Notes under the pieces: model-generated
What the model saw: the letters and a program-made list of their open reading frames with translations, nothing else
Told to the model about the DNA's origin: nothing
Databases searched by the model: none
In this document: piece after piece, positions 7,584 through 61,629 of the stretch
Position numbering within the stretch: position 1 is the stretch's first letter
Layout: every line of letters begins with the position of its first letter
Translations under genes and position numbers: made by a program
Assembly: GCA_001574975.1 (NCBI GenBank)
Contig: KQ965753.1
Location: forward strand, 1-64,000
Length of the DNA stretch: 64,000 nt
Source: Gonapodya prolifera JEL478
Lineage: Eukaryota > Monoblepharomycota > Monoblepharidomycetes > Monoblepharidales > Gonapodyaceae
Direction of reading: 5' to 3'

Positions 7584-7619
7584 GCTGCGTGGCGGGGATT
7601 TCCCTGGAGAACGAGGGAC

Positions 7620-34415: not shown

Positions 34416-34519
34416 TGATGTGTGATGGGCGGAGTGGGTTGGTGGTTCCAGAATCGAGATTCGAGTGTGATCGACGAACACAAAAATGTCCATCAGGCAG
34501 AACAGCCCTGTACATGGTA

Positions 34520-35908: not shown

Positions 35909-38900
35909 CTACAAGAGTGCACTTCCCATACGTCGGAGGGTTGTGTAGTAGTTTGCTCCAGCGCCTGTTGAAATTTCGAGAACGGTTGGTTATTGATGTG
36001 ATTTTAGTTCTTCTAACGAAAAATAGGTAACTTACCCCAGCAATGAGCCATTCGCCTCAAAATCTCGAGATGGACTGATAGTCCTTCTTCAGATTTGATG
36101 ATCGCGGCGGAAACTCGGTCGACGTGAGGGGAACCAGGACCCAGGATCGCCTCAAGGAATGACAATGTTGGGTCGGCATTCTTCAGCTCGTAGCGGCATA
36201 AAGCATGAACCGCACCGCACTGTAGTTCGCCCAAACAGATTGGTGAGTAAGATTAAATCAATAACACTTCAGTAATGTGCGAAAAAGACGCACCTGGAAC
36301 ACAGCATAGAACGCGTTTGTGTTGATCCTAGAGCAGTCCGGGTTGTGCTTCAACAGTCGTGACACTACGTGGGTGCTTTCACGTGCCGCGATGTAGCATA
36401 TCTCGCGAGAGTGCGGGGACGGCCACGAAAGAACTGGAGTTCCGTCCCCGACAAGCGCTCCGGATGGTCGGTGAAGAAGGATTTGAGTAAGACAGAACTA
36501 GCGTCACGCGTTGGTTAGTTCTTGGGCACCGGTGCTGAATTTTTGATTGAGAATGGACTCACCATGAGCCTTAGGCCGTGTGCGGAATGGAATAGCATAT
36601 CCTCAGGTAGAGGCACCGCATCCTCGTCATACGTTCCCGTCTGGGGCAAGTCCGCAACCAAAGATGTCTTGAGGTACTGTGGTAGATTCGCGTCCCACCG
36701 GGCTAAATCAAATTCCAGTGCCTTCATAGAGTCTCCCCTGAGATTTGCCTCGGGGTCCCGTTCGCGGGCTCTTACGAGGCGCTGCACGCGGTTCAAGAGA
36801 AGGTAAAGAGCACATCGTTCAGTGAATCCGTAGGATGGGAATCGACGCTGCAGGGTGGACGGGTTGTTGGATTGTGAGAGTGGGACGGCTTGGCAGACAC
36901 CTTGCGCGACAAGTTTTCTGACTATTCGGACAGCAGAAGTTCCTGGGATCGGGTGACCGAGATCGTCCACTGGGGTGTCAGGACGACGTTGACGTTGATA
37001 GTTAGGAAATCGTCTTCTCAAGACTCAGCAGATGTCACAACTCACATCCATTCCACAACTCATCATTCGGCATCATATTGTGCAGATTGTCAAACGCTGC
37101 GGATTTGGGATCCGGATACGACTCCCCGTCATAGTTGAGCAGGTAATCCGTTGCAGCCACGTAGAGGAACCACATGATTCGCTGTCTAAACTCGTACTGC
37201 AGAGGATTCAAAAGGGAGGAGTCGGGTGGATTCACTCCGGTGGCGGCAAAGAGGGACCGTGCGGAAGGTGGAGGCATATTGAGAAGTTGATTTACTGCCT
37301 TCGCCAGGCCGAGGACAGACCACGCCTGTCCGAGCGCAGACTTTCCCTGGTCCTGGGAGTACACCCTGTGGAGTAATAAGGGCCGTTAAGCCATCTTGTG
37401 GAGCGAAGTACTATCGACGTAGACACCCACCCCATGAGGAAGTAGGCCCTGGCAGATGTCATGGAATCCTCTTCAACTGTCATAGCAATACGCTTTGCCC
37501 TCGCAAGGAAAATTTCGCCTTGTCGCCGTTGTCGCATGTACCGGAATGCATGGGCCAATGTTGCATTAAGCAGAAGAGTGTTTCGTGTTGCTTGAGGGCC
37601 CAGGAGCATAGGTGCGGGGACCTTTTCATCGAAAAGATAGTCTAAATATGAATCGTGTAGAAACGGAGAGGTGAACATACCCCCATAGAGCACCAACAAC
37701 CGGCGGTTCCAAGATACTTCTCCAAGAAGTACCGCTCCTCCTCTGGCATCAGAATCGTAGGGGCCAGTCTAGACATAACAGCGAGAGCCGGGGCTTGTGG
37801 ATCCACGCGGAGGGAGAAATATGGATCCTCGTCCACAGCGAAGGCTTGGTCTTCATCAACCAGAGGTGGTGCCCCGTTCGAGGACACACTTCCTGGACTA
37901 CCGTAGACCGCCGAAGGGCCACCTTCCACGGGCGACTTTGGACTTCCCCCACTAACAAAGCTGGTGGCACCCATCGAGTGGGCTGCAGGCTGATCGGCGA
38001 CGGCGTCGGATTTTCGTATGGCGATGTTGGGTCCCACTGGTATGGCGGTTGGCAGCACCGCAGAACCTAGAGAGACAGGCGACTTCGCCCCGCTCGTAGA
38101 GGTGGGCGACGTTGTGTTTGGGTTCATGGCGATTCCCCCGAGTTCCTGAACGAGAAGTTCCACCTCATCAATCGCGGATCCTGCTTCATCCCTGGACTTT
38201 TTGGCGTGGTACGTGGTGCTGTCCCGTAGAGCGAGTGCGTGTGAAAGTGGGCTGGCGGGCATGGGAAGTGAGGTAACTGAGGGTGTGCGGGTTGTTTGGT
38301 GAAGGCCAAAGCGGCTCGGTGACGTGGACAAGACCGCGCCTTGAGGGTCGAACGGCGATGCCTGGTACTGAACAAGTGTAGCCGGAGCGAAGGGCCCGGT
38401 GGGAATGACGGGTTCTTGCTGAAGGGGGCCGCGTGTCGAGGTAGGGATCATCTGTGCTGGATCAGCACCCAGCATACTCTGTCTTCGGGCGCGATAGGCG
38501 ATTTCCGAAGCGACCTGGGCGTACGGCACACTGTTGTTGGCAGAACTAGAAAGAGCCCCGGCATAAAGATGGCTGCTTGATAGAGCGAGTTCGGAAATCA
38601 CTTCGGGTTTGACGTGGGGGATAGAAGGAAGCTCCATTGTATCGGGATTGTCGTTAAGCGTGATCATCCAGTCCCAGAAATGTTCTAGCAAAACCGGCAG
38701 ATTATAGCGGGCTCCCAAAATCGACTGTCAAGCTGAACTTAAGATACCTTCGTTCAACTTCCGTTTCTTCGACGGTCCGACAGCACCCGCCGAAGCACCC
38801 CACGCCGGCGACTCAGTTCTATTCGAACCTTCATGATGCTCGCACTGCGAGCTCGAGATCATCGGATCGGCTCCATCGTTCGTAATGATTGATTTCCAAG

Positions 38901-39733
38901 CGTTCATGTCCAATCCCAACAAAAGGGAAGAGTCCGCTCCGATCGGGTAGGGAGGTGTAATCTCGACATTTCCTTGCTGGAAATGCGACGCCTGTTCGGT
39001 AAGTGACCGGGTCAGGGCAGAGGATGTTGGCATGTCGTATTCTTGCCCAATGGTTTGGGGGTTTTCGTAGTTCTCCGGTTGCCCTCCAGCGATGTGCGAC
39101 GGCCCAAGTGTGGCAATGAGTGCTGTAGCGGAGTCGATGAGTTCAGACAGCCTCTCGGCGTGTGGGGCTGTGGGGTTGATAGCCCCTGCTTGGAGAAGCT
39201 CCCGAATCATCCTCGTTCTGGAAGACAAAGAGCACGGTAAAACATTACACCTCGAGGTTGAACACATTACGAGAGCATACTCGTTAACGAGCTCTTCGAT
39301 GACCTCTGGATTGACCGGCCGGACAGCAAACGTCGGAGGTCGGTCGTAAGTACATTTCCTCTTTACCCCGCAAGTGGTACAAGGGAGTTTCCCGTCGCAT
39401 CTTCGCTTGAGCGAATGGCATCTGTGAGGTGGACGTGTGTGGGGGAGAGTCGGTTGGTCGTGGGGTCGGTTGGTCGTGGGGTCGGTTGCGGGTTGTGATC
39501 GAATAACAAGAAAACGTCAATCAGACATAACCGCCACAGAGGGCCCCACATGTAGTATACAAGAGTGTCTCTGCTGACCTGTCGCATGCCTTTGTGACCT
39601 TCTTCGCCTGCTTGGCCCCCACAGGATCGGATGCAGTTCTCATCGTCGCGCTCTTCTGCTTCTCAAAGTACTTCTCCTCGGAGTAGTCCTGGTAACCGTG
39701 GTCGCCCATGTTTGCGAACGATTTGCGCGTCAT
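35909..39733 (-). CDS. Fungal Zn(II)2Cys6 transcription factor
   Basis: Ten exons (39579-39733, 39281-39421, 38748-39211, 37681-38684, 37431-37621, 37046-37365, 36563-36969, 36294-36497, 36036-36219, 35909-35964) join in phase to 1041 residues. The zinc cluster spans the first intron: KACDR | CHSLKRRCDGKLPC, TTCGVKRKC, giving the full six cysteines near residues 49-75. A serine-rich linker follows (KKRKLNE is a likely nuclear signal). The middle-homology region characteristic of fungal regulators begins near EEERYFLEKYLGTAG and includes NTLLLNATLAHAFRYM and QRIMWFLYVAATDYLLNYD. Such proteins bind CGG triplets in promoters as dimers. The target pathway cannot be told from context; the neighbours are a broken paralogue and OPA3. 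Confidence 0.92.
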
Positions 39734-40749
39734 CCACGCAGAAATCTCTGGGTCTCCGATGTGTGTGTCGGGGAGACCTCGGTGTTTTTGAGGTCGTTGA
39801 GGTCGTCTGTGCCCTGATTTGCCTCGCAGATTTTTACCACAGACAGACGACAAAAGGAAACCCCAGAGACCCCTAATTAAATGCAAAATGACAAGGCGAG
39901 AGTCGCTGGATACGTTCCGCCACTTCCGGTCAAGTTTCGGGCACTCGTGCTCGGCACCCATCCGCATATGATGTTCAGAGAATTCCCGGACATCATACAC
40001 TAGCAGTACTGGAATGATGTGTTTCTGGACCATTAAATGCACATTAATGTGATTTGCAGTGTGGAGTGCTCAGTGCCCGCTTCCCCGATCCGGTCACTTG
40101 TAAAATCGAAGTTCACATAAGACAGCGGCAGACCACCCGGACTGCACCGGAAATTGGCTCACTATGGCAGAGAGTGTATGCAATTCGGCCTTGGGCGGGT
40201 GTAAGTCCAGTATTCGGTGCTCGTCGGCTTGCCGTCAAGCACTGGCTAAACGGCAAAATGTTGATGTGCCCGCACCTGTTTTCTGAAGGGATGAGGAGAG
40301 CAACTGGGAGGCGTTGAACCAACTTTGACGTGATACTGCGCAGCGACAAGCGAGAGCTGAGGCGCCGTGGTTGACCACGCAGACTGGTGCACGTCACACA
40401 AGCCGGTGAACCAGCAAAGGAACACGATGACAAGGGAACTGGTCGCGGAAAAGCAAAATTTTGCTGTCTCCCGGACACAGAAGGGTCGAGCAAAGGGGCA
40501 AGGGTTAGGGTTAGTTTTACAGTCAGGTTTTCACCCAGACCGCGAAGAGACCTTCACAGACCCTTCATCCATATCTAGCTGGGGGACAGTTCGCCACAAA
40601 GTCGCCCAACCTCTGTGTAACCTCGTGTGACAATTGTGGCTGGATGTATGTACATCACACCAAAGATTTTAGTTCCTCTGAATACATTTTCTTCCCTAGA
40701 CTAAGGCATACAACGCAAACTGAGATGTGGAAAATCTCCCGATAATTAT
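39734..40749. other. Intergenic region
   Basis: About 1 kb between the transcription factor and the OPA3-like gene. No gene found; it contains a short interstitial telomere motif. Confidence 0.5.
40501..40516. repeat. Interstitial TTAGGG motif
   Basis: AGGGTTAGGGTTAGTT, a little over two units, in the orientation opposite to the CCCTAA telomere at base 1. It could be a repair footprint, or a telobox-like regulatory element, or chance. Confidence 0.5.
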
Positions 40750-41919
40750 TCAGCCTCCTCGAACGGAACCAACGTCTGGCTTCGCATTGACCTGGGGCAT
40801 TGTCCGTTCACTCTTGGCCGGAGCGACCGCATTCACGTCACGCTGAACGTGCGAGCTTGCCGGTACATAAGGTACGGCGGCATCGCCGTGGCTGGAACCA
40901 AAGAGCCATGTCCACCACGATGCCGCCGGTTGGGCCTTGGCAAGGTCATCACGTCCAGGGTCCATAATGATCGTCAACTCCGTTACAGGTGCAGTCTTCT
41001 TGTTAGATGATCCACCTCGAGGCCCATGATAGGCTGCAGCAGTTCCCGTTCGAAACACTTCGGGGCCCTCCTCGAGAAGTTTACCCAGTCCGGATAAGCG
41101 AGAGACCCGTCTCTCCAACGCCTCCACACGTTCATTCAGTGTACGTACGTCGGCAGTAAGTTGTTGTAGGAGCGCGGTGGATTCGGATGCGGAGGAGGTG
41201 AGTGTGGAGAGGGATGTGGCGACGTTACGTTGAGCTTTCGAGGATGAAGAGGAGGACCGAAGCTGCTCTGTGAAGGCGCGTCGTCGTATTGCGGTGGTAG
41301 TGATTATTTTGCGTGAGTTGTAGGAAGGTTGCGGTTTTGGGGGATGGTTTCGAGAATTAGTTCGACGTTCGATCAGCGGCAAGTACAGTCCATGTGGTAT
41401 GATAGAAACTCACCTATCAAAATGATCCCAGCAGCGACAGCAAACATGATGAACTCTCCCAAAAAGTCAGCACCCACTTCGACAGCCCTGGTACGAATCC
41501 GATACAGAGTGAACGAGTGAGCTGCTTTCAAGGAACACGACGCACTTTGCCTCAGTTAATGGCCGGACTGTCTCCGGTTTAGGTCCTCCCATTAAGGTAG
41601 CATTCAAGCGAATATCCACATTGTGGTATGTCTGTGCAACAGTGACGCAGAACTGCTTAAAGCCTGGGTGATTCTTTGATGTTCGATTCACGCCACAAGG
41701 GTGACCGGATGAGAGAGACCGAGAGACAAAACTAGCCAACATACCTTAGCCGTCGACTTAATACCATTCGTGATAGGTTTGGCTATCGTTCGGATGGCTA
41801 GAAAGCCGATCTTGACTGTCGGCAGCGATTGGGGGAGGACGATGGCAACGGGGAGGTAAACGATTGTCAGACACTTTCCGCAAGTTTCTACCACCAGAGA
41901 ATATAATACCGGTGGCCAT
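40750..41919 (-). CDS. OPA3: OPA3-like mitochondrial protein
   Basis: Exons 41910-41919, 41745-41815, 41546-41673, 41414-41487 and 40750-41267 join in phase to 266 residues. The tiny first exon supplies only ATG GCC ACC G. The start MATVKIGFLAIRTIAKPI is the conserved OPA3 N-terminus, followed by FKQFCVTVAQTYHNVDIRLN and the hydrophobic segment EVGADFLGEFIMFAVAAG IILIG, then a coiled coil (LLQQLTADVRTLNERVEAL). OPA3 acts at mitochondrial membranes and affects their morphology. Human OPA3 is 179 residues, so the C-terminal part (after about residue 170) is an extension of low complexity with one WWTWLFG patch. It is head to head with ATP synthase gamma, another mitochondrial gene. Confidence 0.92.
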
Positions 41920-42019
41920 CTTCAGCTGCAGCCTGCTTCGTTGCGAGTCTCTCACTGGTGCCCGGTCCACGCTTCGCCCCATTTTTTCAGCCTCGACCGG
42001 GTTCTGCACCACCAGCGAA
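41920..42019. promoter_or_regulatory. 100-bp divergent promoter of OPA3 and ATP3
   Basis: Only 100 bp separate the two start codons of divergent genes that both encode mitochondrial proteins. Both promoters and 5' leaders must overlap here. No TATA box is visible; the sequence is moderately GC-rich. Confidence 0.6.
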
Positions 42020-43763
42020 ATGTCTCTTCTCGGAGCACGCCCGCTGTGGGCAGCGCAGCAGACGATGCAGGCGACGCAGCTGGCGACGGGGTACGTGGTG
42101 GTGTAGGAGGGCGATTGACACGATAGGGGAGAGGGCGGAAGGAGGAATCGATGGAAACTGGCGATGGAACACTCTTCTGAAATGAAAAAGAAATGAAAGA
42201 AGGTGGAATTGGGGACGGTGGACGCGGAGGGGTGGCCCGGTTTCGGCTGGAGACCGGTTGGAAAACGGGAATGGCGTCCGAGTACACGGGAACAGCACGG
42301 AGCTCTCAGCATTGAGTTCAATCGCCCAAAGCGTTATGCCATGAGTCTGTTTCTAACGCTGACCTGAAATGACTCTCTCTTCCAGTGCCGTCTCCATCGC
42401 AGCCCAGCAGCGAAACATGGCCACTCTCAAAGAAAGTTGGTATCCTCTCACTCCACAGCAGCCTCGTCGCATCAATCTAATATGCGATTTCCACGCAACA
42501 GTCCAGCTTCGTCTTCGCTCCATCTCCAACATCGCCAAGATCACAAAGTCCATGAAAATGATTGCCTCCACCAAGATGACCCGCGCTCAGAGGAACATGG
42601 AGACTGCTCGCGTGTACGGCAAGGCCGACCGTGGTGAGTATTTGGGACGTGCAATTCTGGACTTCTTCGGTGGATGGGTTGGGATCCGAGATAGGTCACC
42701 GGTGTGGGATGGAGAGACCGGACTGGATGCAGGGAAGGGATGAGGTCGCGATGAGAATCACATGCAAGAGTAGTGCTCCATGATTTGGGCTGCTTTGCTG
42801 GTGCAAGAGAACCTAGCGTCCCTTCAGTCGTCCGACACCAACTAAACTCCCTTTTCCCCCAGCTCTGTACAAGCACCTCGCCATCCCCGAAACCCCGGTT
42901 TCCGAGGGAAAAACTCTCCTCGTCGCCATCTCGTCCGACCGTGGTCTGTGCGGATCCATCCACTCGTCCGTGGCTAAGTACATCCGTCGCCAGTTCGACC
43001 CCTCCAACTCGCTCTACGCCGTCGTGGGGGACAAGGTCCGCTCGCAGCTCAACAGGGGCGCCACGAGGAACAGCCTAGCCGTCAGTTTCTCCCAGGTGGC
43101 CAAGAACGGACCCACCTTTTACGAGGCCAGCTTGGTCGCGGAGCGCATCTTTGAGAGCGTTGGCGCCGAGGCGGAGAAGGTCAAGGTTGTCTACAACGAC
43201 TTCCGCAGCGTGATTGCGTTCGATACCACCGCGATCGACGTCGTCAAGGCGAAGGAAGTCGCAGATGCCCGTGAGTTGGATCCTTCCTGGTCTGGTCATG
43301 GAAAACCGTCTTGTCGTTACTGTCGTTCTATCCTAACGCGTGCGCCATTCACCTCGGATCTCACTAGCTGGCTTCCGTGCCTACGAGGTCGCCGACGAGT
43401 CCATCCTCGCTGACCTGGAGCAGTTCCACCTCGCCAACACCCTGTTTTGGGCCTTGTCCGAGGGACACGCCGCTGAAATGTCTGCCCGTAGGACTGCCAT
43501 GGAGAACGCCACCAAGAACGCCGGTTGGTAGACTAATCCCCTTACACATTTCTTATGGAATCATGTCAAACCAACGATCCTACCCCTCTCAGGTGAAATG
43601 ATCCAGAAACTGACCATTACCTACAACCGTTCGCGTCAAGCTGCGATCACCAACGAACTGGTGGACATTATCACCGTGAGTACATGCTGGCATCCAAACA
43701 AGCGCGCCCGGACGGTATGACACTTCACCACCGATCTCTTTATAGGGTGCTTCTGCGTTGTAG
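42020..43763 (+). CDS. ATP3: ATP synthase F1 subunit gamma, mitochondrial
   Basis: Exons 42020-42090, 42386-42435, 42502-42633, 42863-43270, 43368-43523, 43593-43675 and 43746-43763 join in phase to 305 residues. The start [17 protein letters not shown] is a typical mitochondrial presequence, without acidic residues, and joins across a 295-nt intron to [17 protein letters not shown]. Family hallmarks are [29 protein letters not shown], the SLANxLF-like [20 protein letters not shown] and the C-terminal [15 protein letters not shown], which forms the rotating shaft helix. The gamma subunit is the central rotor stalk coupling proton flow through Fo to ATP synthesis in F1. Length agrees with fungal homologues (about 300). 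Confidence 0.97.
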
Positions 43764-44015
43764 ATTAGTGTGTGAATGAACCTGCGGTGCCATGGTGGTG
43801 GATGGCATTGCATGCTTGTTTAGAGTGTGATAATACACAACGTATATCTCGAAGTATCTCGTTCCTTGCGATGTTCGGACAATTTATGGATTGGGTGGCA
43901 TATTCTCGATGACTGCGTATCAGAACAGCCCATAGTATGTTCATATTCCCGCCGTGTGTACATAACAGAGAAGGTTCAACGAAATGCACGGTGACATGAT
44001 ATAACAGTAGGCACT
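43764..44015. other. Convergent intergenic region
   Basis: Short spacer holding the 3' ends of ATP3 (plus) and the phosphatase (minus); nothing else seen. Confidence 0.5.
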
Positions 44016-45607
44016 TCATTCCTCCAAACAAGCCGAACGTAAACGCTTCCTGTCCTCTTCACCGAAGCCGATCTGGTCGAGCCAAGCTTCCACGGATCCG
44101 TAATTATTACGGATATAAGCGAACGTCTTGTGCATGGTCTTTCACGTGGAACGGGGACAAATGAAAACCCAAACTGTCATAATGAGCTCACCCGACACTA
44201 GATGAGAGCCTCACCTCTTCCTTGACAAAGACCCAGCTTTCATCCATACCGGAGCGTGCCAGAAACTTCACCAAAAGTGGCGCTAGGTGGGCCATTTCAC
44301 GGTTTGTGTGAGTGTAATCGCCAGAGATGACGGATTCGTCAACGCCCGCAATGTAAAGAACGAGTGCTGTGATGCACCACGGGTCACGCGATTAGTAAAA
44401 ACTAATTTGAGTACCACTGTAATTATTACCTGCAGTGAGACCAGCACGATCCTTTCCAGCACTGCAGTGGAAAACGACAGGATGGTTCTCGCGATGAGAG
44501 ATCACGAGAAGTGCCTAAAGGTGATGGGCGAAGCTCGGATCTAAACGACAAAACGTCCGCACACGATGACGTGTCACCTCTCGAATTTCATCCTTCGCGT
44601 GGTCAACAAGACGCTCGTTGAAACCCAGAAGACCATATGGACTCATGGAAGTGCTTGTTAGGAAGGCATTCGCTCGTTGTGTGGAGAAAATCCTTAGGAC
44701 AAGGAAAACGCTAAATCGAAGGTGAGGAACGACAGTATTAAGTACGAAAGCTCGGGGTAACGTATGTCGTGGTAGTTTGTCGGGCTTACATTTTTACAAA
44801 AATCGAAGTCGCCTTCCAATAAACAACCGCGAGCGGACCACTGTAGTCGATCTTGTGCCAAATATAACGAGCAATGGCTCCATTAACTGTCGCGGGTATG
44901 AGAACACGCTTTTTCTCATCGAGGGGCTTTCAAGAACATCGTAAAAATCGAAAAAACACGGACAAGCACAATCGCTACACGTTGCGGTACTCACATGCGT
45001 CGTGCTCACTGCGAAGTGCGCATGAAGATGTGGATTGGGGTGTTGCTCCGTGCTGCATCAAAGCAAACAACATCATGAAAGGTCTCTAGCCTCGGACAGC
45101 AAGACCAAACAGGCCGCACACTTACGGTCGACGAAGGTCAACAATTGTCTGGATCTTGTGCACGTTGAGAACACGTTCCGCATCGGCCGCAGTTGCATTG
45201 TCTGTCAGGGAAATCATGAGGCAAAGCCAACAATATCAGATTTAGATTAGAGGGCGCGGAGGCCATCTCTTACCAAGCGTTCCTGAACGGAATACAATGT
45301 CTGATTTGAGCGATTTCCCGTCCTTGGTTTGTTTCCCGGCGAGCAGATCGCGGAAGTTGATGATTTGTTCCATTTGATGAAGATTGACACGATCAACCTC
45401 GGAGTAAGGCTTCGCTTTGAAAACAGGTCGTTTAGTGGTTCCAGTACTGGGTTTTCCGTCGGAAGAGTTGGTGCGCAGTCGGCCGATGATCCAGCTGAAG
45501 ATGCTTGTAGAAGAATCTGGAACAGTGCCATCAGCCTTGCCGTTGCCATCTTCAGCGGCGATGTCTAAAGAGACTGGTTGCGCCGCAGGAATGTTCGTGT
45601 CAGCCAT
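44016..45607 (-). CDS. Tyrosine phosphatase family protein (HCSAGKDR type)
   Basis: Exons 45274-45607, 45126-45201, 44995-45052, 44790-44926, 44578-44692, 44430-44514, 44215-44366 and 44016-44138 join in phase to 359 residues. The active-site loop is VVFHCSAGKDRAGLTA, with the catalytic Cys and the phosphate-binding Arg both present. Upstream lie INFRDLLAG, DIVFRSGTL and VHKIQTIVDLRR, the conserved N-terminal blocks of the Y_phosphatase3 family. The C-terminus YIRNNYGSVEAWLDQIGF is also typical. The HCSAGKDR loop is found in tyrosine and lipid phosphatases of this family; the substrate here is not known. The first 45 residues are low complexity. Confidence 0.93.
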
Positions 45608-46024
45608 GATGAAGTAATAATGGTCGGGTCAATAGAGCCGTTTCACCGGTCGATCCTGGAACTTCGAACTTCGCTTTTCAGCTTTCAGATTCCAACTGAA
45701 AGCATAATATTCTTTACAAAACAAATACACTCGAGTATCATGAGCATTCTTGACTATCAAAACCGAGCTCAAATATAATACTGCTTCAACCTGGATCAAA
45801 ACTTAAGAGAATGCGAAAACCATCCCCTCATCGGATGGACATATCACAATGCAAGGACCCGGTAGAACTTCAAATGGTACGTGTAAGTCATAGCGGGAAA
45901 CGCAGCGACCTGCGCTGCAGTGCAATGGGTATAGTGGGTATGGCGCGCGCATCAGCTAGGAAAACGAGTGGTATTAATATCCACCCAATAATAGTCCATG
46001 GTGCTCGTAACTCACTGCAGCAAA
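45608..46024. other. Intergenic region
   Basis: About 400 bp between the formin stop and the phosphatase start (both minus strand); should hold the phosphatase promoter. No TATA box or gene recognised. Confidence 0.5.
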
Positions 46025-49000
46025 TTAGTCTTCCATCGGGGAAGAAAGCCTGATCGATCTGTCTCCACCGTTGATGGTCACTGTGTCAGAATCGGTTTCC
46101 TCATCAGAGACACCCGACCCATCGACCGAAGTGGTAGCAGAGCTCGGTCGCAGCAACATTTCATGATCGTCGTGTTCTCCGAGTGAAGGCTTATGTTTGG
46201 AAGATGGTTCACCAAGTGTCTCGCCCAAGTCAACGGCCTCCTGATCAATCAACACTGGGTGGACAATCATCGGTCCACCAGTTGGCGCGGATTCCACATC
46301 CGCAGGATCGACGCTTGCCTTTTCCGCGGCGATTGAGACATCGGCTTCTTCATTCACAGATTTCAAGCCCTCTTCAACTTCAGTCTCTCCCTCTCCACGA
46401 CTCGCTTCCATCTCTCCCGCATCCGTTTGCAACGGTACCACTCCTTTAAGAACTGATTTGTCTGTGGTTGTTGATATTGACACCTCTGACTCCAACCTGC
46501 CCGGCTTCTTGTCTTCTTCTGCTTCAACAACCAAGGTTGACGGCGAAATGGTCTGCGAGGATGACTGCGGTTGACAAATGAGAAGGTATATCGATATGAA
46601 TTTTCAAATTACAGAACTCACCTCTTCCGTTTGGACCCCGGCAGATTTGGTTGCACTCGACGACGCAATATCTGACACCATGAGAGATTCTTGCTCAACT
46701 GTGCCATCGGCCTTCGTTTCCGACTTCTGGATACCTTCTGGCGATTCGACTGTCTCGGTACTGGCGTCAACAGTACGCTTCAGCGGCGTGGTCTCTCTCT
46801 GACCGTCCCGTCCCGAACCAGTGCTCGTGGATGAAGGTTCCATCTTGAGCTGTTGTGCTGGTACGACCTCCTCCTGTTGGGCATCTGTCGTTGTGTAGGA
46901 GGAATCTGCAGGCTTTTCGGAGGTTACTGCTGCATTCAATTTTGGTTTCTGATCGGCAGGCTCGGATGATGATGCCTCCTTGGAGTCCGAAACTGTGACC
47001 TCAGCCTTTGTGTTGGATTCAGAGCGACTCTCGATTGTGGAAGACCGTTTCAACCCAGGGGACGTGGATCCCAGTTTCGAATTCCGTCTCGACCTTACTC
47101 GGCGGGTCTTCTCGTCGGTCTTTCCCCCATCACCACCACTGGCAGCCCCACCCATTGCCTCCTTCGCAGCCTTTTCCGCAGCTTTCCGTTCCTTACGCGC
47201 TTTCTCCTCCTCCTCCTTCTTCTTTCGCTTCTCGGCCTTTTCAATGTCCGCTTTTTTTATCTGGTTTTGCACCAATGCCTCTGAAAACGCTGTGACAAAT
47301 GCTTCGACAACACCCAAAAGAGCCTCGGGTAACTTCTTGGTGGGTGCACTCTCCTCACGCTCTTTGTCGGTATCTGCTGGACCCCACACAGCTTGGTATT
47401 CGCTGAGATCCTCCGCCAAGTACTTAGCAGTCGCCACGAAAGAGTTCTTAGTCTCGAAAAGACTCTCCCTCACTTCACCAACGTCCTTTTCGGCCTTCTC
47501 TAAAAATGGTGCGTACGATTGTTGAAATTGTTCGGACGAAGGGTAGTCTGGCATCTCCTTGGAATCCGCGTCCGCGATTTTCTTCGCCTGCTTCTTGTAC
47601 TTGTAACCGCGCAGTAAGTCGAGCCGGCTCTGTATTGCTTGGTACTCCTCCACGATGAGAGGAACGGATATCTGCTTCACATCCTTCAACTCTTTCAACT
47701 CTCCGGGTAGTTTGGTCACCTGAAACAACATTATTCACATTACTTGATGTGAGACAAAGGTGGAACTTGATGCTAGACTAACCTCTGGGTGATTTCTCTC
47801 CATGCTTTCCGCAAGGAAGTTCATCAACGTAAACTTTTGGTCGACGCTCTTGAAGTCCTTCAGCTTTGTCAACGATTCGACTTTGACAGCCACGGCGCGA
47901 GTCTTCATGTTCCGCCAGCTCGTCGCCTGTCCGCTGTACGTATAGTTGCTGAGGTTTCCAGTTTCAATGGCGCCCTTTAGCAGGACCTTGAAACTCTCGG
48001 ACTCCCTGACCCTATCCAACACCTCCCGCACTTGCTTGAGGCGGGACATGATGGACTCCAGTTCAGTGGAAAGCTCAGCCTTGAAAAGAAAACACATAAC
48101 GTAGTGCTCGAAGTTCGGTTCCCGAAGTACTTCAAGCATGAACTTCTCTGCAGGCCCGAGCTTTTCGCCGTTTGGATCGGTCTCTCCACTTGACTCCGCA
48201 TAGCCATCGATCTGGCTCTTCTCCTCCGGTGTTGGCAAAAGCGGGATGATCTTGGGTAAGTCGCTCGGTGCAACGAGCTCAGAGTCCATGATTGCGATTG
48301 CCCGTCGAAGTCCTCGCACATTCATGTTCTTCCCCCGGAGAAAACCAGCGACCGCGATGGAAACGTTTTGCGCTCGTCGACCATCGAGCAGCGAGACGAA
48401 CTTGGGAGCAGCAGCCTGCGAATCATCGGCTTTGGGCTTCGCAGCCGTCTTCACGGATGGATCGATGCAGAAGAGGTCTGTTCGAAAAGAAATGAGTAGG
48501 GAACATCGTCATCCAAATTTTTGAAGGCCCACCTTCGAACTGCTGAATATCCAGCTGCACGATCCGCTGATTGTTCTCAAACCACACCGAGTCTGCTTTG
48601 ACCTCGTTCTGGTTGATCTCAGTCCAGTGTAGCTTTGCCTTGACACGTTTCTTCACGGGTGGAGGCGCAGCTGGAGCAGCTGGGGCACCGAACGGTGGAG
48701 CTGGCGGACCTCCGGGTGGCCTTGGAGCACCGGGTGGGGGCGGAGGCGGCACTACCATACCGGGTGGAGGCGGGGGACCAGGCGGGCAAGGGAGACCACC
48801 ACCGGGTGGGGGTGGGGGTGGGGGTGGACCACCTTGGTGGCAGAAGCAACGTCAGGTTAATTTCTTAGAGGAAATGTATAATTGATAGAACGAGCTCACC
48901 TGGTGGAGGAGGCGGCGGGGGTGGTCCGAATCCAGGAGGAGGCGGGGGTGGAGGTGGGCCAAACCCTGGAGGGGGTGGAGGAGGTGGAGGTCCAAACCCA

Positions 49001-52000
49001 GGTGGTGGTGGGGGAGGCGGAGGACCAAATCCAGGTGGTGGGGGAGGTGGCGGTGGCGGGCCAAATCCCGGTGGGGGTGGAGGTGGCGGTAGAGGTCCGA
49101 ATCCCGGTGGGGGGGGTGGTGGTGGCGGCGGGGGCCCTGATGCCGAGAAACGGAGAACTTGATGTTAGAAGATGTAATGTAAAACTGTCCGTAATTGCGC
49201 TTACCTCCGCCCATCATTGGTGGAGGGGGTGGACGAGGCGGAGGTCCGAATCCAGGTGGTGGGGGAGGTGGTGGCGGTACACCTTTCGAAAGGATACAGG
49301 TGTCAATGCAAACTTTATACTTGATCGAATGATTTTACGTACCTGGTCCACCCATCATCGGAGGCGGTGGGGGCGGTGGGGGCGGTGGAGCTATCAGTTC
49401 ATAAAACGGTCAGATTCGTTCCACCGTGTGCAACAAGTCCCCCATACTGTACACTTACGAGGTCCACTCATCATCGGTGGTGGTGGTGGTGGGGGAGGGA
49501 TGGCTGTAGAGACACGCGGCGGTGAGGCTTCAAACGAATACGTGGACAAAAACGTGCACACACCTGGTCCACCCATCATGGGCGGTGGAGGAGGAGGAGG
49601 AGGTATCGCTAGAAGGGCAGACGCGCAACGAGACATTAATTCACAGATCATAATATGTAGTGTGTGATACCCACGTGGACCTCCCATCATTGGAGGGGGT
49701 GGAGGTGGAGGTGGAATAGCTGTTTGGTTGGGGCGTAAATGAGGGTGAAAATACAAAAGGATTGATGGATACATACGAGGTCCGCCCATCATGAGTGGAG
49801 GAGGTGGTGGTGGTGGAATGCCTTGCACAACGAAAATCATAAGGCACTTGATGACACCAATCACAGTTTTTGGAGGTGGGGTACGTACCATGACCCCCCA
49901 TCATCGGCGGCGGTGGTGGTGGTGGTGGAATCGCTAAATCAAAGCCAAATTTGTGGGTAAACGTCTTACAAAATCGTAAAAGACCACGATACTTACGAGG
50001 ACCTCCCATCATCGGAGGCGGTGGTGGCGGTGGAGGTATTCCGGACGGAGGACCGCCATCTTGAAAACCGAATGGCGGAGGTGGGGGTGGTGGGGGGGGG
50101 CGGATCGACGCGCCTGCGACGATGTCAGCGCTTCATCGAAACCCGCACTAAAATATCACCGAACTTACCAAACGGCGGCGGTGGTGGAACAGGTATTGCT
50201 GATCCAACACCATCACTGGGCGATGTAAATGGCGGAGGTGGAGGTGGCGGTGGGGGTGAAGGTGGAATGCCCGAGGTGGTGGAATCTTCTTGGGTGAATC
50301 CGAAAGGCGGCGGTGGAGGGGGAGGTGGCGGTGGAATACCAGGTCCGGCATCAGGGAGGGCCATCCCAAACGGGGGTGGTGGGGGCGGCGGTGGTGGAGG
50401 GATTCCCGACGTCTCCTCGACTACAGCCGATAAGGGAGCGTGATCCTCCCCAACAGGCACCACCGATACTTTAGCGAGCTCTCCACCCGCTCCACCAAAC
50501 ACATCAGGTGCACTCCGACTCTTCCTCTTGCGCATCTTGCTCGGATCTGCACCCAGGAACCTCTTTGGTGGGGACGCCCCATCACCTCCTGCAGCTGACC
50601 CAGCCCCGGTCGACTTATCGGGCGAGCTCGTGGGCATAGGCGACCCACTGGCCCGTCTTGGATTAGCATTGCTGGCTCCCGATGATTCCGGGTCACTATC
50701 CTTGACCCTGGTGAGGAACCCAGCGGCCTTTCGGCGGTTCTCTAGGTCCCGAGCGTACGATAGGTACTCCCGGCGCACGATCTCGTAGAAAGATGAATTG
50801 AGGAGACTGGAGCGGAGGAACTCGTGTGCATCGTGGATGTTGTTGTTGGTGCGTTGGAGGGCAAAGTCGGCTGGATTCGGGCATGTGGTTAGCAATCACC
50901 ACCCACCTACGCCAACAAAAGAAACGAAGCTCACCACACAGCCCCACAACTTTAAACTGCGTCTCCACCACCTCCCTCAACAACTTATTGGGCCTTACGC
51001 AATGATACCGCACCAACTTGGTCAAACATTTGTGCGCGGAATCGTCTAAGTACTCCGTATACGAGCCCTCTTCCTCGCCCTCTGCTCCATCGCCTAACTT
51101 TGCCAACCCATTCGCAACACCGTGACTTCCCCCGCGTCCAGCTTTGCGGCGCCCACTAGACCGATCAGCACTGCTTGCAATCGACAACCGGGGACTGGAC
51201 CTCCCCTCGCTGACCAACTCTGATCTCGATTCCGCTTCGGACCTTCCCTCCTCGTCCTGGTGCAGCTGCACCGCAGGAATCGACGCCAACACATCCATCT
51301 CAGTCCGTGCAGGATCCTCCACGGCCTCGGGCCCAGTCCGGCCACGTTCCCTCGCCGGCCCGGTCGCGGGGGTCATGAGCAAATCCAACGCGCACGCCTT
51401 GCCAAACTTATCCTCGACCTCCCTGACGGTCCGGACGCCATAGAGGTCGAGGTAACCGTTCGGCGCAAGACACACTCGGACGGCACCTGGGTTGACAAAC
51501 CCTGCATGGAACCCAAACCCCAGCACGGGGACTCTCGTACCTGGAGCGCCCGCGACGCCGCGCGCATGGTGAACGATTTTGACAAACACGTCACGGTCGA
51601 GGAAGATTGCTCGAGGGGGGTGGAAAGCGATGAAGGCGTCTCCGACGACAGAGACGTCCGAGAAAGTGTCCGTGCGGCGGGAGGGATGGGCGAGAAGGTC
51701 GGTGGAAAGGGACACCAAGGGATCCGGCATGGGCACGTCGGGAACGTCGTTGTGTTCGGGATCCGCAGTGTCCGTGTGTCCAGGCTGCGCACTTCGCGCG
51801 CCCAACCTCCCAGCCCGCCTCGCTGCACCGAGGCCTCGTCTCCCTCTCACACCGCCTTCCTCCTCCGCATCAGCATCACCCGGGTCTGTATCCTTTCCGC
51901 CGGCACCAGGCCGGCCACGGACGATCCGCTGCCTCGTCCTCGTCACGGCGGTGGGTGCCTGGACTTGAGGTGGACCGGGTGCCCCGCCGGCCCCTTCCGC

Positions 52001-54518
52001 ACCATCGCCATCACCACCTCCCACACCAGCCTCACCCACCCTACTCGCATACACGCACTTCCCCCCCACCCACACTTCGACACCGGGGTTAATCCGCTCC
52101 CCGGACCCAGGCACAACCTTGGGCACACCTCTGAGCACGACTCTATGCAGCCTCAACCTCCCACCATGGCCAACCCTCCCCTCCGCATCAACCACACGAT
52201 CAAAATACTCCACCGCCCTTCGAAAACTCGGCGGCACGGGGGTATCGGGCGGGGACCACTTGGGGCCCGGGTCTGTCGCGGAGAAGAGGCGGCGCTGGGC
52301 CTCCACGACGCCCTGGTTCCCGTCGCTGCGACCACGACCCTGCCGCCGCTCAACGACGTACTCGAGAGCCTCACCTGCTGAGGGAAAGGCCTTTGCGAAC
52401 CGGAGGTAACACGCTGCGGCAACGGCAGACGCGTGTCCCGCGGGCGTGCAGTGGATGACGGCGACGTTCCGCGCGTCCGAAAGGAGCCATGCCCGGAGAG
52501 ATCTGCAGAGGTCGAAGAGGAGGCGGAGTTGCGGGGGCGGGGTGTCGGTGGTGGATGTGATAATGGATGTGGAGGTGGGTTTGAAGGAAGGGAGAGCGGG
52601 GGAGGAGATGGTGGGAGCCAGGGGCGGGAAGGAGACGATTTGGTGCGAAAGCGAGGCGGGATCGTATGAGGGGTCGCCTGGGTGGGGGAGTGCGTGGATG
52701 GTAAGGCAGGAGGTTAGAAAAGGATGCACAGATGGCGAACTGGGAAAGTGAACGAGTCGAGTCTTCCCGTCGCAATTTGTATACCTAGAAGTGGCTCCCC
52801 TTCCTCCATCATATCCAGTAACTTCCGCTGTTTTCACCCCCACCTCATCCCCGACAACAAAACTCACCCCCCAAATCCCACACCATCCACCTTCCACCCC
52901 ACCTCGCATCCAGCACTCTTCTCAACTCATCGACATTATTCCTCCTCAGCGCCTTGGACGTCCTGGCGCGCCAGGGCGAACCGGAGAGGATAAGGCGATC
53001 AGTGATCCGTGTGAGGTCGAGAGTGTGCGCTTGCAGGGCGATAGGGTCGAGCGGGAGGCCGTGGAGTTTTTCGGACTGGGTTGGGGGGAGATTGGAGGGT
53101 GGGTTAGAGGAAGGGATGTTAGAGAAACGATGAGGGATTCAATGGTCGACGCCCAGTGAATCATGAAATAGCGCCCCTCACCAAACACACCACCCCCAAC
53201 CCCACGCCGACACGCGAACGTACCTCCCGCTTCTCGAACCAACTATGCCCATAAATCTTCCTCTCCTTCTCTGTCTTCTCCTTCTCCGTCTGGTCCGCCC
53301 CATGTTCATCCTGGTGGTGCTCCACGGGGGCATGCACACCCAACCCTTCCCTCGCATCGTCATCCGGAAACGCCGCGTCCGAAGTAAGTAAGGGCACACC
53401 CAATTTCTCAAAAGCGTATATCGAAGCTGGGTGTTGTGGCGTCGTCGGGGGGTCCGGGTGCTGGAGGGGCAACGCGGCTCCTTCTCCTGCGCCGTCGGGT
53501 GGCGGACCGGGTCGGAGTGGAGTTGGTGTTGAAGGTGAGATAGGTTCGGGGTCGGGTGTGGAAGAGGTTACAGAAGGGCGGATAGGGGTGGATGGGGAGG
53601 GTGCGCGGGAGGGGACGGGAGATGGGAGGGGAGAGGATGGTTTTGAGGGCGCCTCGGGGAGGGGGAGAAGCCAGTCTGGGTGGATGAGTGAGAAAAGGAG
53701 AAGGAGTGGGGATGGGTGTTGGTGTAGAGGTGAGCGGTGGAAGTAGAACGGCATGAGTAGTATTGGTGGGTTGGGTGGAAGTCGGGTGAGTGATGAGAGA
53801 TGGTAAACGAGTGCGAAAGGGACAAAAGGAAAGGAAAGGCGAGAGTAGATGAGCAGGCGAGATCAGGGATGACACGAGCGATGACAGGGGAGACACGTGA
53901 ATGGTGGCATGTGATGGCACGTGACAGTGAGTGACAGCGAGTACTTGTGTGAAGGGAAGGAGAGCCTCACCTGCACTTGCGTCGGCGAGCGTGCTGGTCG
54001 AATTGTCGACTCGTGAGGAGAATCGTGAGCGGGAGCGTGCAGTACGAATAGGAACGGGAGATAGGGTGGGCGAGAGAGTGTGCGGAGGAGGGAGTTCGCG
54101 AGTTCTGGCGGGCGGTGTCTGAAGTGTAGCGTATAGTGTTCAATAAAGGAGAGTGGCAGTCGAGTACCGGTGCAAGTGCAGTTCAGTGTTAGAGTTGGGT
54201 GTCACCAATCCCCCCTTTCAGTCGACATACCTGCTCGCCCTCTGTCGCCGTCATGTACCCGGAGGACTCTCGACTCCCGTGTCCACTTCCCGTCGCCGTA
54301 GCGTACCCGCTGCCAGCCTCGCTGACTCCTCTTTCGACCTGCAAACCTCCGACACTAACACCACCCATCCCATCTCCTGGTCCTCCCATTCCCGGTCCCA
54401 CTCCCACCCCCACACCCCCGCTCTCTCCCCGCTCTGCCGTCTTGTCCGGTGGCTCCGGGGGCGGTCCCACGTCGAGTCCAGCTCCCCCCTGCTTGTAACC
54501 CTTCAGCCTCTTGAGCAT
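46025..54518 (-). CDS. PTEN-like formin (pseudophosphatase-C2-FH1-FH2)
   Basis: Nineteen exons join in phase to 2292 residues: 54231-54518, 53971-54118, 53224-53675, 52868-53075, 50935-52677, 50169-50870, 49997-50113, 49889-49933, 49777-49821, 49675-49719, 49564-49608, 49459-49503, 49343-49390, 49205-49282, 48900-49136, 48533-48832, 47783-48477, 46622-47719, 46025-46564. Residues about 300-480 resemble a PTEN phosphatase (LTRITDRLILSG, NNVDELRRVL, YDPASLSHQIVSF, VAVIHCTPAGHASAVAAA): the loop Cys remains but its Arg is gone, so it should be inactive. A C2-like half follows with a long insert. Residues about 1120-1480 are the proline FH1. FH2 starts KKRVKAKLHWTEI (about 1480) and has RGLRRAIAIMDS, TGNLSNYTYSGQA and KLKDFKSVDQKFTLMNFLAE. 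Formins nucleate and elongate actin using profilin bound to FH1. The acidic tail holds no clear autoregulatory motif. The start ATG at 54518 is the best but unproven choice. Confidence 0.93.
48900..50113 (-). repeat. Tandem array of FH1 mini-exons
   Basis: Nine consecutive exons, from 49997-50113 to 48900-49136, all begin and end in phase 1. Five are exactly 45 nt and one is 48 nt, each encoding a unit like AIPPPPPPPPMMGGP; the others (117, 78 and 237 nt) carry extended or repeated versions ending MMGGP or built of PPPPPPPGFG units. Introns between them are about 57-75 nt and differ in sequence although all start with good donors (GTAAGT, GTACGT, GTATGT, GTGGGT, GTGTGT). This is repeated exon duplication inside one gene. 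Confidence 0.93.
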
Positions 54519-56519
54519 CCTGTCCGTGTTTCCTCGCGTCGCCGTCTACTGCGCATGCGTTGTTCTTCCCTCCTTCTTTCTTCTCGCTTCGTTTTCGTTG
54601 GGTAAAACACGTAGAAGGGTGTCAGGTGGTTGAGGAGTCGCTCATCCATCCGCATGATCCGAAGCCACAGGGGCACCGTGCACCCTCCGCTTCGCAACTG
54701 GGCATTTTACGGAAAGGTATCGAGGCGGAGCAGATTTTATTTCTAGTTTCGTTACAGCTCTTTTCTTTCTACACTTCTCCTACGATCTTCTGTCTTCCCC
54801 CCATCCTCCTGAATTTAGCCGTATCGCCGAGACCCCATTTCACATCCGCCCTCTCCTCCGCGCTCAGCTCATCACCACCATATTAGTTGCTTATCGCTTT
54901 CCACCCTCTCGCACGCCACATCTCCCCCTTCCGCCTCAGATACCGAGGACGCACCCTTCCGCCTCTGTTATTCCCCCACAACAAACACTCTTTTCCAAAA
55001 GGAGAATATCACGGAGTCTGGTCATCATGTTTGAAGACAGTAACCTATTTGCAAGTAGAGCATGACACCTTGAGGAAGACACGTACGTGCTGACTGCTGA
55101 CAGTGTCTGTGTGGCATTACCAGCGGTACTAGTCTTTGGCTTGTGGAGAACAAGTCGAGGTGTCGCAGCGTAGGCTGATTCAGTTGCTGTTTGTGAAGGC
55201 GATGACAGATGCTCCTCCTCGATTTTCACGGCAACCACACGTTCTTGAGCAGAGCTTACCTTGGACCATTTCACCAACTGGGCCATACACTGGTGCAGGC
55301 GAGGGACTTTTGTTCACTTGAACTTTGACCGCTCCACAATCGGGAAGCGGCTTGGGCGTGATAGCAATGGTGCGTAGAAGGTGAGGTTTGCTTCTCGAAT
55401 TGCATGAAGTTCACATCACTAAGGAGATTGTCGCAGGTGATCGTAACTTTTCCTCCGAGACCATCAAGCGCCCACTGCGACGTGGATTAAGATTCAAGGC
55501 AGCACCGCTTTGCTGCAAGCCTCTGATTCACTCGTTAGATTGAGTGAATGTCCAGGCACTTGGCCACGAACACCGTCATACGAGTCAACACAAATCTGCA
55601 ATACATTGAGAATTTTCTCGTTATCTCATCTGTTCACTGAGTCGAACAAAAGGACTGCGGGACCTACATCATCACCATCATCTTCACACTCTGACAATTT
55701 TCTTTTTCTATTCGGACCCGGCTTCGCGCGACCTAAAGTTGACTTGTCACTTGGCCAGACCAAAGGTTTTGAATCATGGAAGGGATCGTTCTTTCCAAGC
55801 AAGAAGACAGCCTCGATTTGATCGGATTGAATGGAGAATCCCGGAGGGGTGCAATACGGTGTCGTGCTCGGCTTTGTCGAAACAATTTTGCGCAGTGACC
55901 TCCATGAACGGGAACATTGGGTACATACCAACAGCACAGCAATTCCCACCAACATAGTTTGGATTACGTTCATGTGGAAGTCGGGTGAGTAGACGGTCAC
56001 CTTGTACAAATAATCTTTGCCCACACATTTGTGGCAAAAACAGGATTCTGATTGAGGTAACATCTAGGCATTAGCAATGTACTGATACTGGCAAAAGCAA
56101 CGAAAAACTGCACCGGTACAACAGAAGCATGCCCAGTTGGACATCTTTGCAATGTCTCCAAAGCACTTGCCTGGCACCTGGCACCTGTTGTGCAACAATT
56201 CAATGAAACATCTTTGCAAGCTTTGATCTGTGAAAGTCTGCTATTTGTGTTGAAACAGACATCCAAATGCCTGCACAAGTCTCCTGTGAGATTATGGTAC
56301 GCCTCTTTCGCCAGTGAAATAGCAACCTCGAGGTCTTTTCGATTATATTGCTACAAGGTTTCAAGCTATGCCGAGGCTCGCAGCATCTACGCCCAAGCGA
56401 ATGGCATGGTGCCAGAAGCTGGGGAGCCCTTCACAGTTTTCGCATCGCCAATATTGGTTGAAAATGTCACCGTTGCAAAAAATGCACGTAACAGAACCAA
56501 TTTCGTCTCTTGATGACGG
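54519..56519. other. Unresolved region upstream of formin
   Basis: Two kilobases without a recognisable gene. The formin promoter should lie at its left side. Minus-strand frames at 54936-55286 (with VVAVKIEEEHLSSPSQ) and 55626-56063 (ending GRAKPGPNRKRKLSECEDD, a likely nuclear signal) look like possible exons of an unknown gene, but I could not join them or match a family. Confidence 0.35.
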
Positions 56520-59856: not shown

Positions 59857-60130
59857 TGGAAGGGCAGATGGTACAAGAAACTTGTATGGGTGCGGGTAAT
59901 AGAGAAGCGCTGGCCGTAATAGTAGTGCTTTCATTGGAGACAGTGTGGTTTTACAAGTACGATAAAAACTGTCCACCAAACAATAGTTCCAAAATGATAT
60001 CCATCACACCTTGCGTCTGCAAAATCAATGCTCAATGCACTGTGGCCAACACACGATAAACGCAGTACGCAAAAGGTATTGTTGAGCCAAGGGTCGTTGG
60101 GTTGATGCGGGGACTTTGGCGTGCTGCTAT

Positions 60131-61629
60131 CACACCTTGTTCAGCTGTTGGAGCGGAGGTGGTTTGAGGCGCTACGACAAGCGCGTTAGCCCGGACAAAC
60201 AGTGATAGCCGCAACAACCATACCCACGCACGAGCACCCGCCGGCCGCAGATTGGGCAGCGTCTGTATCGCACTTACCCCACACGGCGCGACGACACCGT
60301 CCATAACACCCGCTGCATCGTGCAGGGCCAGCACAAACGCGATGTCGTCTTTACCGCACACGAGTTTGTGCGTTGCCCAGTCCGCTTTCTGGCACTCCGC
60401 ACTGCAGTACCGGGCCAGTCCGCACATGGAGCATCGGTTGAGTTTCGGAGGTAGGGCCCAGGGTAGTGGGTTTGGCAGCTCTGGAATATCAAACTCCACG
60501 ATAACCTTTTGCGTGGAGCCATCGCGCCTTCGTTGCCTCGACGCATGTTCTGAAGTAGTATTTTCTGTGCGATCCGTCTGACCCACAGGGCATCCCATGC
60601 GGCAACACACGAGAGGAGCCCACCTTGCGGTTTTTCCACTCTTTGAGCGGAGTTGTGGGCCACACCAGTGCAAAATGTGGTACATTTCTTGCACAAGATT
60701 GTCTGGGTCGGTGTTGCGTGGGCCTTCCTCGTCATCAAGGATACGTTCAATGCGACACTGGTATGGGTGTGCTGAAATGGCGGCTGTGATCGCATCCCAT
60801 GCCCCCTTTCCCGACGAGAGGCCAGTCCTCAGAAGGCGAAACCAAGTCGTGAGGAGTTCGTGGAAATGTCGGGTGTTAACTCCGGGATATCTGGGATCTT
60901 TCCCGGGGTGTCAAACACCATCATAATGTCAAGAGTGCGAACGACCAGCGGCGAATTTGCAGAGAATATTCGTGCGCAGAGGTCCGCGTTGTGCCAGAGG
61001 AGACTCAAGGTGTCAGAGAGGAATAACGAAATGAGACCCAGAATCACCCTGCCGTAGCCCACAACGGTGCTTTCCTGGTGATCCAACGGCAACATTTTGA
61101 TGTATTTGCCGACAGCACTTGGCCATTTGTGAAGCAAGAAGGGTGCCATGCCCATGCTTTGATAAACCTGGCGTTCCTGGTGGGCGGAAATATTTTTGGC
61201 ACGAAAAGATTCGATAGTAGAGGGGCAGGCGCCGCAGTAGCTTATTGCTTTATCAATGGAGACATGGCATGGGGCCTCTTTGCAGGTGATTGAGTGGTCC
61301 ATTGAGGACAGCAATCTGGACGCCGTTGAGGGATGTCGGAATACGAATAATAGCATGGAGAGAAGTGTCCCGCGGCGAAACTTCACCGGATGCCATGATG
61401 ATGGGGTATTGGACAGGAATGCCTGGAGATCACATATTTTGGATGCACACTATTCACCGTGTGTTAAGAGGAAATGGCAGTTGCGCTCAGGGGACAAAAG
61501 CGTCCACGCACCACGGTATTCCCCTCCGTCGTCGAGAGCTCCAGCGATTTCCTCCAAGCGAACTGAGCGGAAACGAAAGGATCCGAGGTTGCTTCGGATA
61601 TTAGCATCGAATTCCAAACGAAAGGACAT
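60131..61629 (-). CDS. MYND zinc-finger protein
   Basis: The zinc finger is plain: RCSMCGLARYCSAECQKADW then ATHKLVC, with an earlier cysteine pair at VCCRMGC separated by an unusually long insert. MYND fingers bind proline-rich peptides in transcription or chromatin factors. The body upstream contains DLCARIFSANSPLVVRTLD and FHELLTTWFRLLRTGLSSGK, an Arm-like helical region common in fungal MYND proteins. The likely start is MSFRLEFDANIRSN (ATG 61629) and the end is after an intron from 60277 down to 60146 (stop at 60131). Between MMVFDTPGK and DPRYPGVNTRHF the frame changes near 60905 without a GT-AG intron, so this gene is either damaged or carries an assembly indel. Exon joins near 61390-61570 are not resolved. 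Confidence 0.7.

Follow-up and report, generated by a model that had tools for sequence, protein, structure and literature searches.

Does a formin whose FH1 domain is cut into many small exons of identical phase use these exons to vary the length of the domain, or do they record how the domain has grown? The question is raised by a gene on contig KQ965753.1 of Gonapodya prolifera JEL478 (GenBank assembly GCA_001574975.1), of which positions 1 to 64,000 of the forward strand, 64,000 nucleotides (nt) in all, were analysed (below, the window). A first-pass annotation of this DNA had proposed that an FH1 domain is built here, at 48900..50113, from an array of exons that can be skipped without loss of frame, so that alternative splicing could tune filament elongation. 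Comparison of two diverged copies of the predicted gene shows an old series of symmetric phase-1 mini-exons, with one polyproline track per unit of ca. 15 residues. The reading that we consider rather probable is that of an ancient, modular FH1 of a PTEN-type formin, the exons of which would be mostly constitutively spliced.

The mini-exon array and its second copy

The FH1 region was searched for splice chains with GT donors and AG acceptors (AAG acceptors being allowed), and eleven coding pieces were found. The nine inner ones, exons 7-15 at 50113-48900, recovered exactly the nine consecutive exons that had been proposed, all phase 1 in and out, with lengths in the window copy of 117, 45 (five times), 48, 78 and 237 nt; the proposed five 45-nt exons and one 48-nt exon are among them. 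The array introns of the window copy are 57-68 nt long and run from GT to AG. A separate splice-chain search of a second copy of the gene, on contig C22, retrieved FH1 exons of 117, 45 (five times), 39, 78 and 168 nt, again all phase 1/1. The pieces of the window copy are listed below; all come from the splice-chain search, which found exons 8-12 and 14 with the same lengths in both copies.

50169..50418 (minus strand): first, unsegmented part of FH1, inside exon 6
49997..50113 (minus strand): exon 7, FG-capped track and first MMGGP unit, 117 nt, phase 1/1; 117 nt in the C22 copy
49889..49933 (minus strand): exon 8, mini-exon, 45 nt, PIPPPPPPPPMMGGH
49777..49821 (minus strand): exon 9, mini-exon, 45 nt, GIPPPPPPPLMMGGP; acceptor AAG here, TAG in the C22 copy
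49675..49719 (minus strand): exon 10, mini-exon, 45 nt
49564..49608 (minus strand): exon 11, mini-exon, 45 nt
49459..49503 (minus strand): exon 12, mini-exon, 45 nt
49343..49390 (minus strand): exon 13, mini-exon, 48 nt (39 nt in the C22 copy)
49205..49282 (minus strand): exon 14, one GFG unit and one MMGG unit, 78 nt
48900..49136 (minus strand): exon 15, unsegmented array of GFG-capped units, 237 nt (168 nt in the C22 copy)

The repeat unit is xIPPPPPPPPMMGGP. The annotated polyproline unit with its MMGGP cap stood, whereas the proposed nine prolines proved to be mostly eight consecutive ones, and in the window copy the cap deviates to MMGGH in exon 8 and to MMSGP in exon 12. Single units are held by exons 8-13 only; exons 7, 14 and 15 hold two, two and seven tracks. 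All 512 of the 512 inclusion patterns of exons 7-15 in the window copy are in frame and free of stops; the proposed formin FH1 made of in-frame mini-exons is borne out. As far as the DNA can tell, the array looks real and unusual.

An FH2 search of the 47.6-Mb genome gave 17 matches at seven places. The place on contig C22 is a collinear copy of the formin with 86% DNA identity (84% at the 5′ end) and 19 matching exons, those outside FH1 having been placed with motifs carried over from the window copy. Over 2254 codons of the whole gene, synonymous divergence (dS) between the copies is 0.39 and non-synonymous divergence (dN) 0.043. Both copies have GT and AG at the ends of each of the nine array introns; given the 81% ungapped identity of introns 7-16, all 36 bases would match with a probability of ~5e-4 if unconstrained, a figure weakened by the search itself, which requires GT and AG. 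Misassembly, against which the first-pass annotation had warned, is excluded, because the second copy carries the same array on another contig.

Over 73 codons of mini-exons 8-12, the copies differ by 18 synonymous and 6 non-synonymous changes (dN/dS 0.10; Fisher's test, 3.5e-7). The peptide that they are predicted to encode is under purifying selection, which rules out that the mini-exons are part of one large intron. Units of a single copy, when compared with each other (exons 8-12 plus the end of exon 7), are far apart at synonymous sites, with proportions of synonymous differences (pS) of 0.70 and 0.69 and of non-synonymous ones (pN) of 0.04 and 0.03; the units look old, their synonymous sites apparently saturated and their peptide strongly kept. 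In a nearest-unit comparison that left out exons 13-15, 11 of 12 units had their counterpart in the other copy as closest unit; exon 12 of the window copy did not. The array is therefore older than the split of the copies, and the units give no sign of recent homogenisation.

The formin gene and its genomic setting

The gene was modelled by hand as 19 exons on the minus strand (54518-46025), with a predicted protein of 2292 residues that is open throughout. Its parts are the following.

46025..54518 (minus strand): whole gene, PTEN-like - FH1 - FH2 - C-terminal extension; hand-built model, with 19 matching exons in the C22 copy
52043..53075 (minus strand): PTEN-like phosphatase domain region, exons 4-5; phmmer match to PTEN structures, P-loop HCTPAGHAS
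47783..48832 (minus strand): exons 16-17, end of FH1 and first part of FH2, which continues into exon 18; PF02181 and mDia1/DAAM1 structures

The N-terminal region matched PTEN structures in phmmer with an E-value of 5.7e-13 (4.1e-16 after removal of linkers), and a Pfam scan of the spliced protein recognised nothing in this part. The match ends before C2, and the C2 half is unrecognised by sequence. The P-loop is without the catalytic arginine of what we take to be the canonical motif, a situation identical in both copies, and because of this the domain is likely a pseudophosphatase fused to the formin. The FH2 domain was recognised on the spliced protein by PF02181 (E-value 1.5e-55; 189.3 bits, cut-off 34.8) and also matches by sequence the structures of Diaphanous 1 (mDia1), DAAM1, INF2 and formin-like 3. 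Directly upstream of it, FH1 has 375 residues in the window copy (61% Pro, 24 runs of at least five Pro) and 345 residues in the C22 copy (59% Pro, 21 such runs).

Because a PTEN-like domain, a long FH1 and an FH2 are combined in it, the gene is probably a PTEN-formin, an already known class. According to the pertinent passages of PMC5628938, PTEN-formins (PTP-C2-FH1-FH2) include SPPG_06651/SPPG_06650 of the chytrid Spizellomyces punctatus, annotated as two genes with the break at the start of FH2. The length of the window FH1 is not unique, since a passage of PMC555941 puts FH1 domains of more than 500 residues on record. It is different with the segmentation: no description of an FH1 cut up into mini-exons was found in those parts of the literature that were searched, which is not proof of its absence from print. 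Within the genome, segmentation looks specific to this gene, being found at two of the seven FH2 places, the window and C22 copies. In the stretches examined at C4, C45, C86 and C17, nine, eight, three and two tracks adjoin FH2 in one open frame, and at the C71 formin locus no polyproline track was seen in the 6.5 kb examined. Profilin gave six matches in the genome, on contigs C1 and C3.

The left end of the window (1-95) is a telomere repeat with 15.8 copies of CCTAAC, and the formin thus lies ~46-54 kb from a chromosome end. C22 and window 36944-55054 (L009, L010) are two collinear copies, as are C86/C17, C48/C168 and C45/C71, at ~80-89% identity; the C4 formin and a radial-spoke gene were found in one copy each in the same searches. 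The paired loci suggest that the genome is a hybrid, that it underwent an old duplication, or that it is extremely heterozygous and its copies are partly separated. The radial-spoke protein (one genomic place; 0 of 14 control genomes) and chitin synthase 2 (36 matches in the genome, the family also responding in 4 of 14 control genomes) fit a flagellated fungus.

Other parts of the window also have relatives on C22. A segment of 243 bases (3405-3647) is 96% identical to a C22 segment (L009 8894-9134), against a background of 86%; its counterpart lies ~1.2 kb upstream of the second formin copy, and it is probably a mobile or subtelomeric repeat. The related stretches 5163-7872 and 8479-10436, with minus-strand open reading frames (ORFs) of 775 and 709 residues that match no Pfam family, are matched by C22 sequence at 88% and 71%. 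Stretches 31962-32756 and 34089-34503 are ~75% similar to the C22 sequence collinear with window 36.9-39.5 kb and are likely paralogous sequence nearby. A Pfam scan of ten window ORFs gave one match; a MYND zinc-finger protein (PF01753, E-value 7.3e-12) is encoded at 60035-60910 (minus strand).

Splicing of the array and delivery to FH2

Under regulated exon skipping, which we regard as unlikely, the number of included mini-exons would work as a dial for the length of FH1 and its number of tracks, as in titin PEVK. This would suit the frame safety of all 512 inclusion patterns and the symmetric phases kept in both copies; shared phase is, however, no evidence for skipping, because duplication of a symmetric exon gives it automatically. 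Titin provides a precedent, its PEVK segment being coded by 114 of 363 exons and having a length regulated by splicing under Rbm20 (as stated in a passage of PMC8553726). Formins themselves point both ways, since many alternative-splicing variants are recorded in metazoans and plants, whereas those of Dictyostelium apparently have no alternative splicing in the coding region (both from passages of PMC555941). In fungi, exon skipping accounts for a small share of events: a survey of 23 informative species, the passages of which name Ascomycota and Basidiomycota (Dikarya) and do not contain the chytrid name searched for, gives 3% of alternative splicing events as skipped exons and 61% as intron retention (PMC3925392), and fungi are comparatively low in exon skipping according to part of a second study, whose data list includes Spizellomyces (PMC6142364).

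The splice sites lend skipping some support, as several donors of the 45-nt exons are non-consensus. C occupies position -1 in 4/9 array donors of the window copy and 5/9 of the C22 copy, compared with 0/9 elsewhere in the gene in each (Fisher's test, 0.08 and 0.03). This base may favour alternative splicing; it is also what a proline codon at the junction requires. The acceptor of exon 9 (49822-49832, minus strand) makes that exon a candidate for copy-specific skipping, because it reads AAG in the window copy and TAG in the C22 copy; in both copies introns 13 and 15 also end in AAG, which suggests that AAG is tolerated. Conserved intron-intron pairing was found in none of the 36 array intron pairs (z below -2 in both copies, 20 shuffles each), which speaks against regulated skipping and rules out Dscam-like pairing as an exon selector.

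We also estimated what a skipped track would cost. Measured from FH2, the six mini-exon tracks are at a distance of 176-250 residues in the window copy and of 142-213 in the C22 copy. In a naive model of delivery, in which a flexible chain is assumed and each track is weighted by distance^-1.5, they contribute ~8% (window) and ~11% (C22) of the delivery sum, or 1-2.5% per track. The passages of PMC5969902 report that an mDia1 FH1 cut from 14 tracks to two still accelerates elongation, less than the full FH1 does, and that the tracks nearest FH2 can mediate robust polymerization, Bni1 work being cited for their sufficiency. Since the mini-exon tracks are distal and their modelled share is small, loss of one of them should change elongation little; processivity and profilin capture might change. 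The proposal that mini-exon number tunes elongation thus comes out as quantitatively weak in this model.

Less likely still is a stage-dependent length dial, in which mini-exons would be skipped and frame-neutral introns kept, giving ~18-24 tracks with varied reach and profilin capacity, e.g., for zoospore crawling versus sporangium cleavage. On the evidence of the gene models, alternative splicing of the array is plausible and regulated control of FH1 length possible, as is a single invariant isoform, which the first-pass annotation had named among the outcomes that would refute it. The symmetric phases are most readily taken as a trace of how the array grew.

Origin of the array and comparison with known systems

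Tandem duplication of an exon together with its intron is the simplest origin that we infer for the array. The introns would have diverged since, and each duplication of a phase-1/1 exon would have added a whole in-frame unit. The normal product would contain all exons and have an FH1 of ~345-375 residues with 21-24 tracks, which supplies the FH2 dimer with captured profilin-actin. If an exon were now and then skipped or an intron retained, this would be a harmless by-product and not a design purpose, because every exon combination stays in frame.

Counterpart introns 6-16 are clearly related between the copies (z 3.0-14.6). Among themselves, the array introns have a mean z of 0.31 and a maximum of 3.05 (72 comparisons), with 0.23 and 2.82 in controls (45 comparisons); on average they have no mutual similarity, by which recent copies or introner-like elements are rejected, weak exceptions such as the pair 7/15 remaining. 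The missing clear similarity would also suit introns inserted several times over at one and the same codon of a tandem repeat that already existed in a single exon, a repeated target yielding identical phase, and unsegmented repeats of this kind do occur. An exact search of the genome for the MMGG unit pattern, which misses variant caps, gave 17 matches, 12 in the two formin copies and five in another proline-rich gene, on C48 and C168, which has 13 MMGG/MAGG-capped tracks in one open frame on each contig and more tracks in other open segments. We nevertheless hold insertion to be quite improbable, as some six independent events at exactly one codon would be needed and introns that had spread recently should look alike. 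The C48/C168 gene (L017 4985-9087 and L018 5179-9273, both minus strand) has no Pfam match over the cut-off; two motifs in it, which by eye we take to be WH2-like, make a WASP-like actin regulator possible.

Mini-exon number is six in each of the two copies, the five 45-nt exons being without length change, whereas unsegmented exon 15 differs by 69 nt (237 vs. 168 nt); exons 16 and 6, which hold other sequence as well, measure 300 vs. 270 nt and 702 vs. 720 nt in the window and C22 copies. This suggests that introns protect the number of units, and non-repetitive introns might help to hold unit number and register stable.

Retention of introns as spacers is the least probable of the readings considered. 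It concerns in particular one stretch of the window copy.

49504..49776 (minus strand): introns 9-11 (49776-49720, 49674-49609, 49563-49504) with mini-exons 10 and 11 between them; each intron a multiple of three (3n) and free of stops if retained

An open frame runs through exons 9-12 of the window copy (49900-49397). Four array introns of the window copy (7, 9, 10 and 11) and two of the C22 copy (10 and 11) combine a 3n length with the absence of stops, a property of none (window) and one (C22) of the nine other introns; among array introns this amounts to 4/9 where 1.0 is expected (p 0.011) in the window copy and to 2/9 where 0.8 is expected (p 0.19) in the C22 copy. Kept in the messenger, as would accord with retention being the commoner fungal mode (61% of events, PMC3925392, in the passages mentioned), they would form spacers of 19-22 residues between tracks. 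The would-be peptides are, however, unconstrained between the copies. Intron 10 has a dN/dS of 0.98 and mismatches by codon position of 5/7/6; intron 11 has 14 non-synonymous changes and one synonymous (dN/dS above 1; mismatches 6/7/2); and the mismatches of the two are not concentrated at third positions (pooled Fisher's test, 0.16). Array introns 7, 8, 9, 12 and 15 differ by 1-6 nt in length between the copies, a stop interrupts intron 7 of the C22 copy, and intron 9 measures 57 nt in the window copy vs. 56 nt in the C22 copy. Introns 10 and 11 look non-coding, with the frame left intact if they were retained. Coding linkers are accordingly rejected, and introns retained as coding sequence, which the first-pass annotation had named as fatal to its array, are disfavoured because no constraint is seen in the evolution of introns 10 and 11, which are open and 3n in each copy.

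To the surplus of frame-neutral introns and the donors with C at -1 must be added several other points that weigh against an ancient, mostly constitutive array stabilised by its introns. Constitutive inclusion is a prior drawn mostly from Dikarya and not a result, and exon skipping is known in some fungi, in connection with stwintrons (a passage of PMC7385547). For a stabilising role there is a single pair of copies to compare; within that pair mini-exon 13 has changed in length (48 vs. 39 nt), and the units of exon 15 are mutually as diverged as the mini-exons (pS 0.70, 0.77). Of the 36 array intron pairs, four rise above z 2.5 in one copy or both; the pair 7/15 does so in both (2.7, 2.9) and may keep a trace of shared intron origin. 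Tandem exon duplication, assumed by the first-pass annotation, survives as the simplest origin and is unproved, clear homology among the array introns being gone.

The FH1 work in the passages of PMC5969902 relies on engineered truncations, and tracks on separate frame-neutral exons would offer a natural dissection of the domain. If splicing varies, actin assembly would have in this array a natural regulator outside the animals, in organisms for which exon skipping is considered less frequent. If it is invariant, unit number has stayed constant in a repeat cut by introns, next to an uncut repeat whose length changed, which gives an idea on how repeats are stabilised.

For mDia1, the likeness lies in repeated polyproline tracks. 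There are 14 of them in mDia1 (in the passages of PMC5969902). The window formin differs in having 24 runs of at least five Pro (21 in the C22 copy), six of them on exons of their own. Titin PEVK exons are small and share one phase, and the formin array is likewise a series of small symmetric exons that code for a low-complexity repeat. In titin the disordered segment is coded by 114 of 363 exons and its length is set by splicing; protein and organism are unrelated, and variable splicing is reported for titin, whereas the formin array is known from sequence alone (exon count and splicing of titin from passages of PMC8553726). The closest relatives by class are PTEN-formins, which share the N-terminal PTEN-like domain, the proline-rich FH1 and the FH2 and have a known chytrid member; a segmented FH1 is not described for them in the passages of PMC5628938. 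The window gene further differs from them in its P-loop without the catalytic arginine and in a C2 part that is unrecognised by sequence. In fibrillar collagen genes, too, the exons that carry the repeat units are small and symmetric (45, 54 nt), arose by duplication and are normally all included; the repeat is Glycine-X-Y and the product extracellular, and the example shows that symmetry of repeat exons does not imply alternative splicing.

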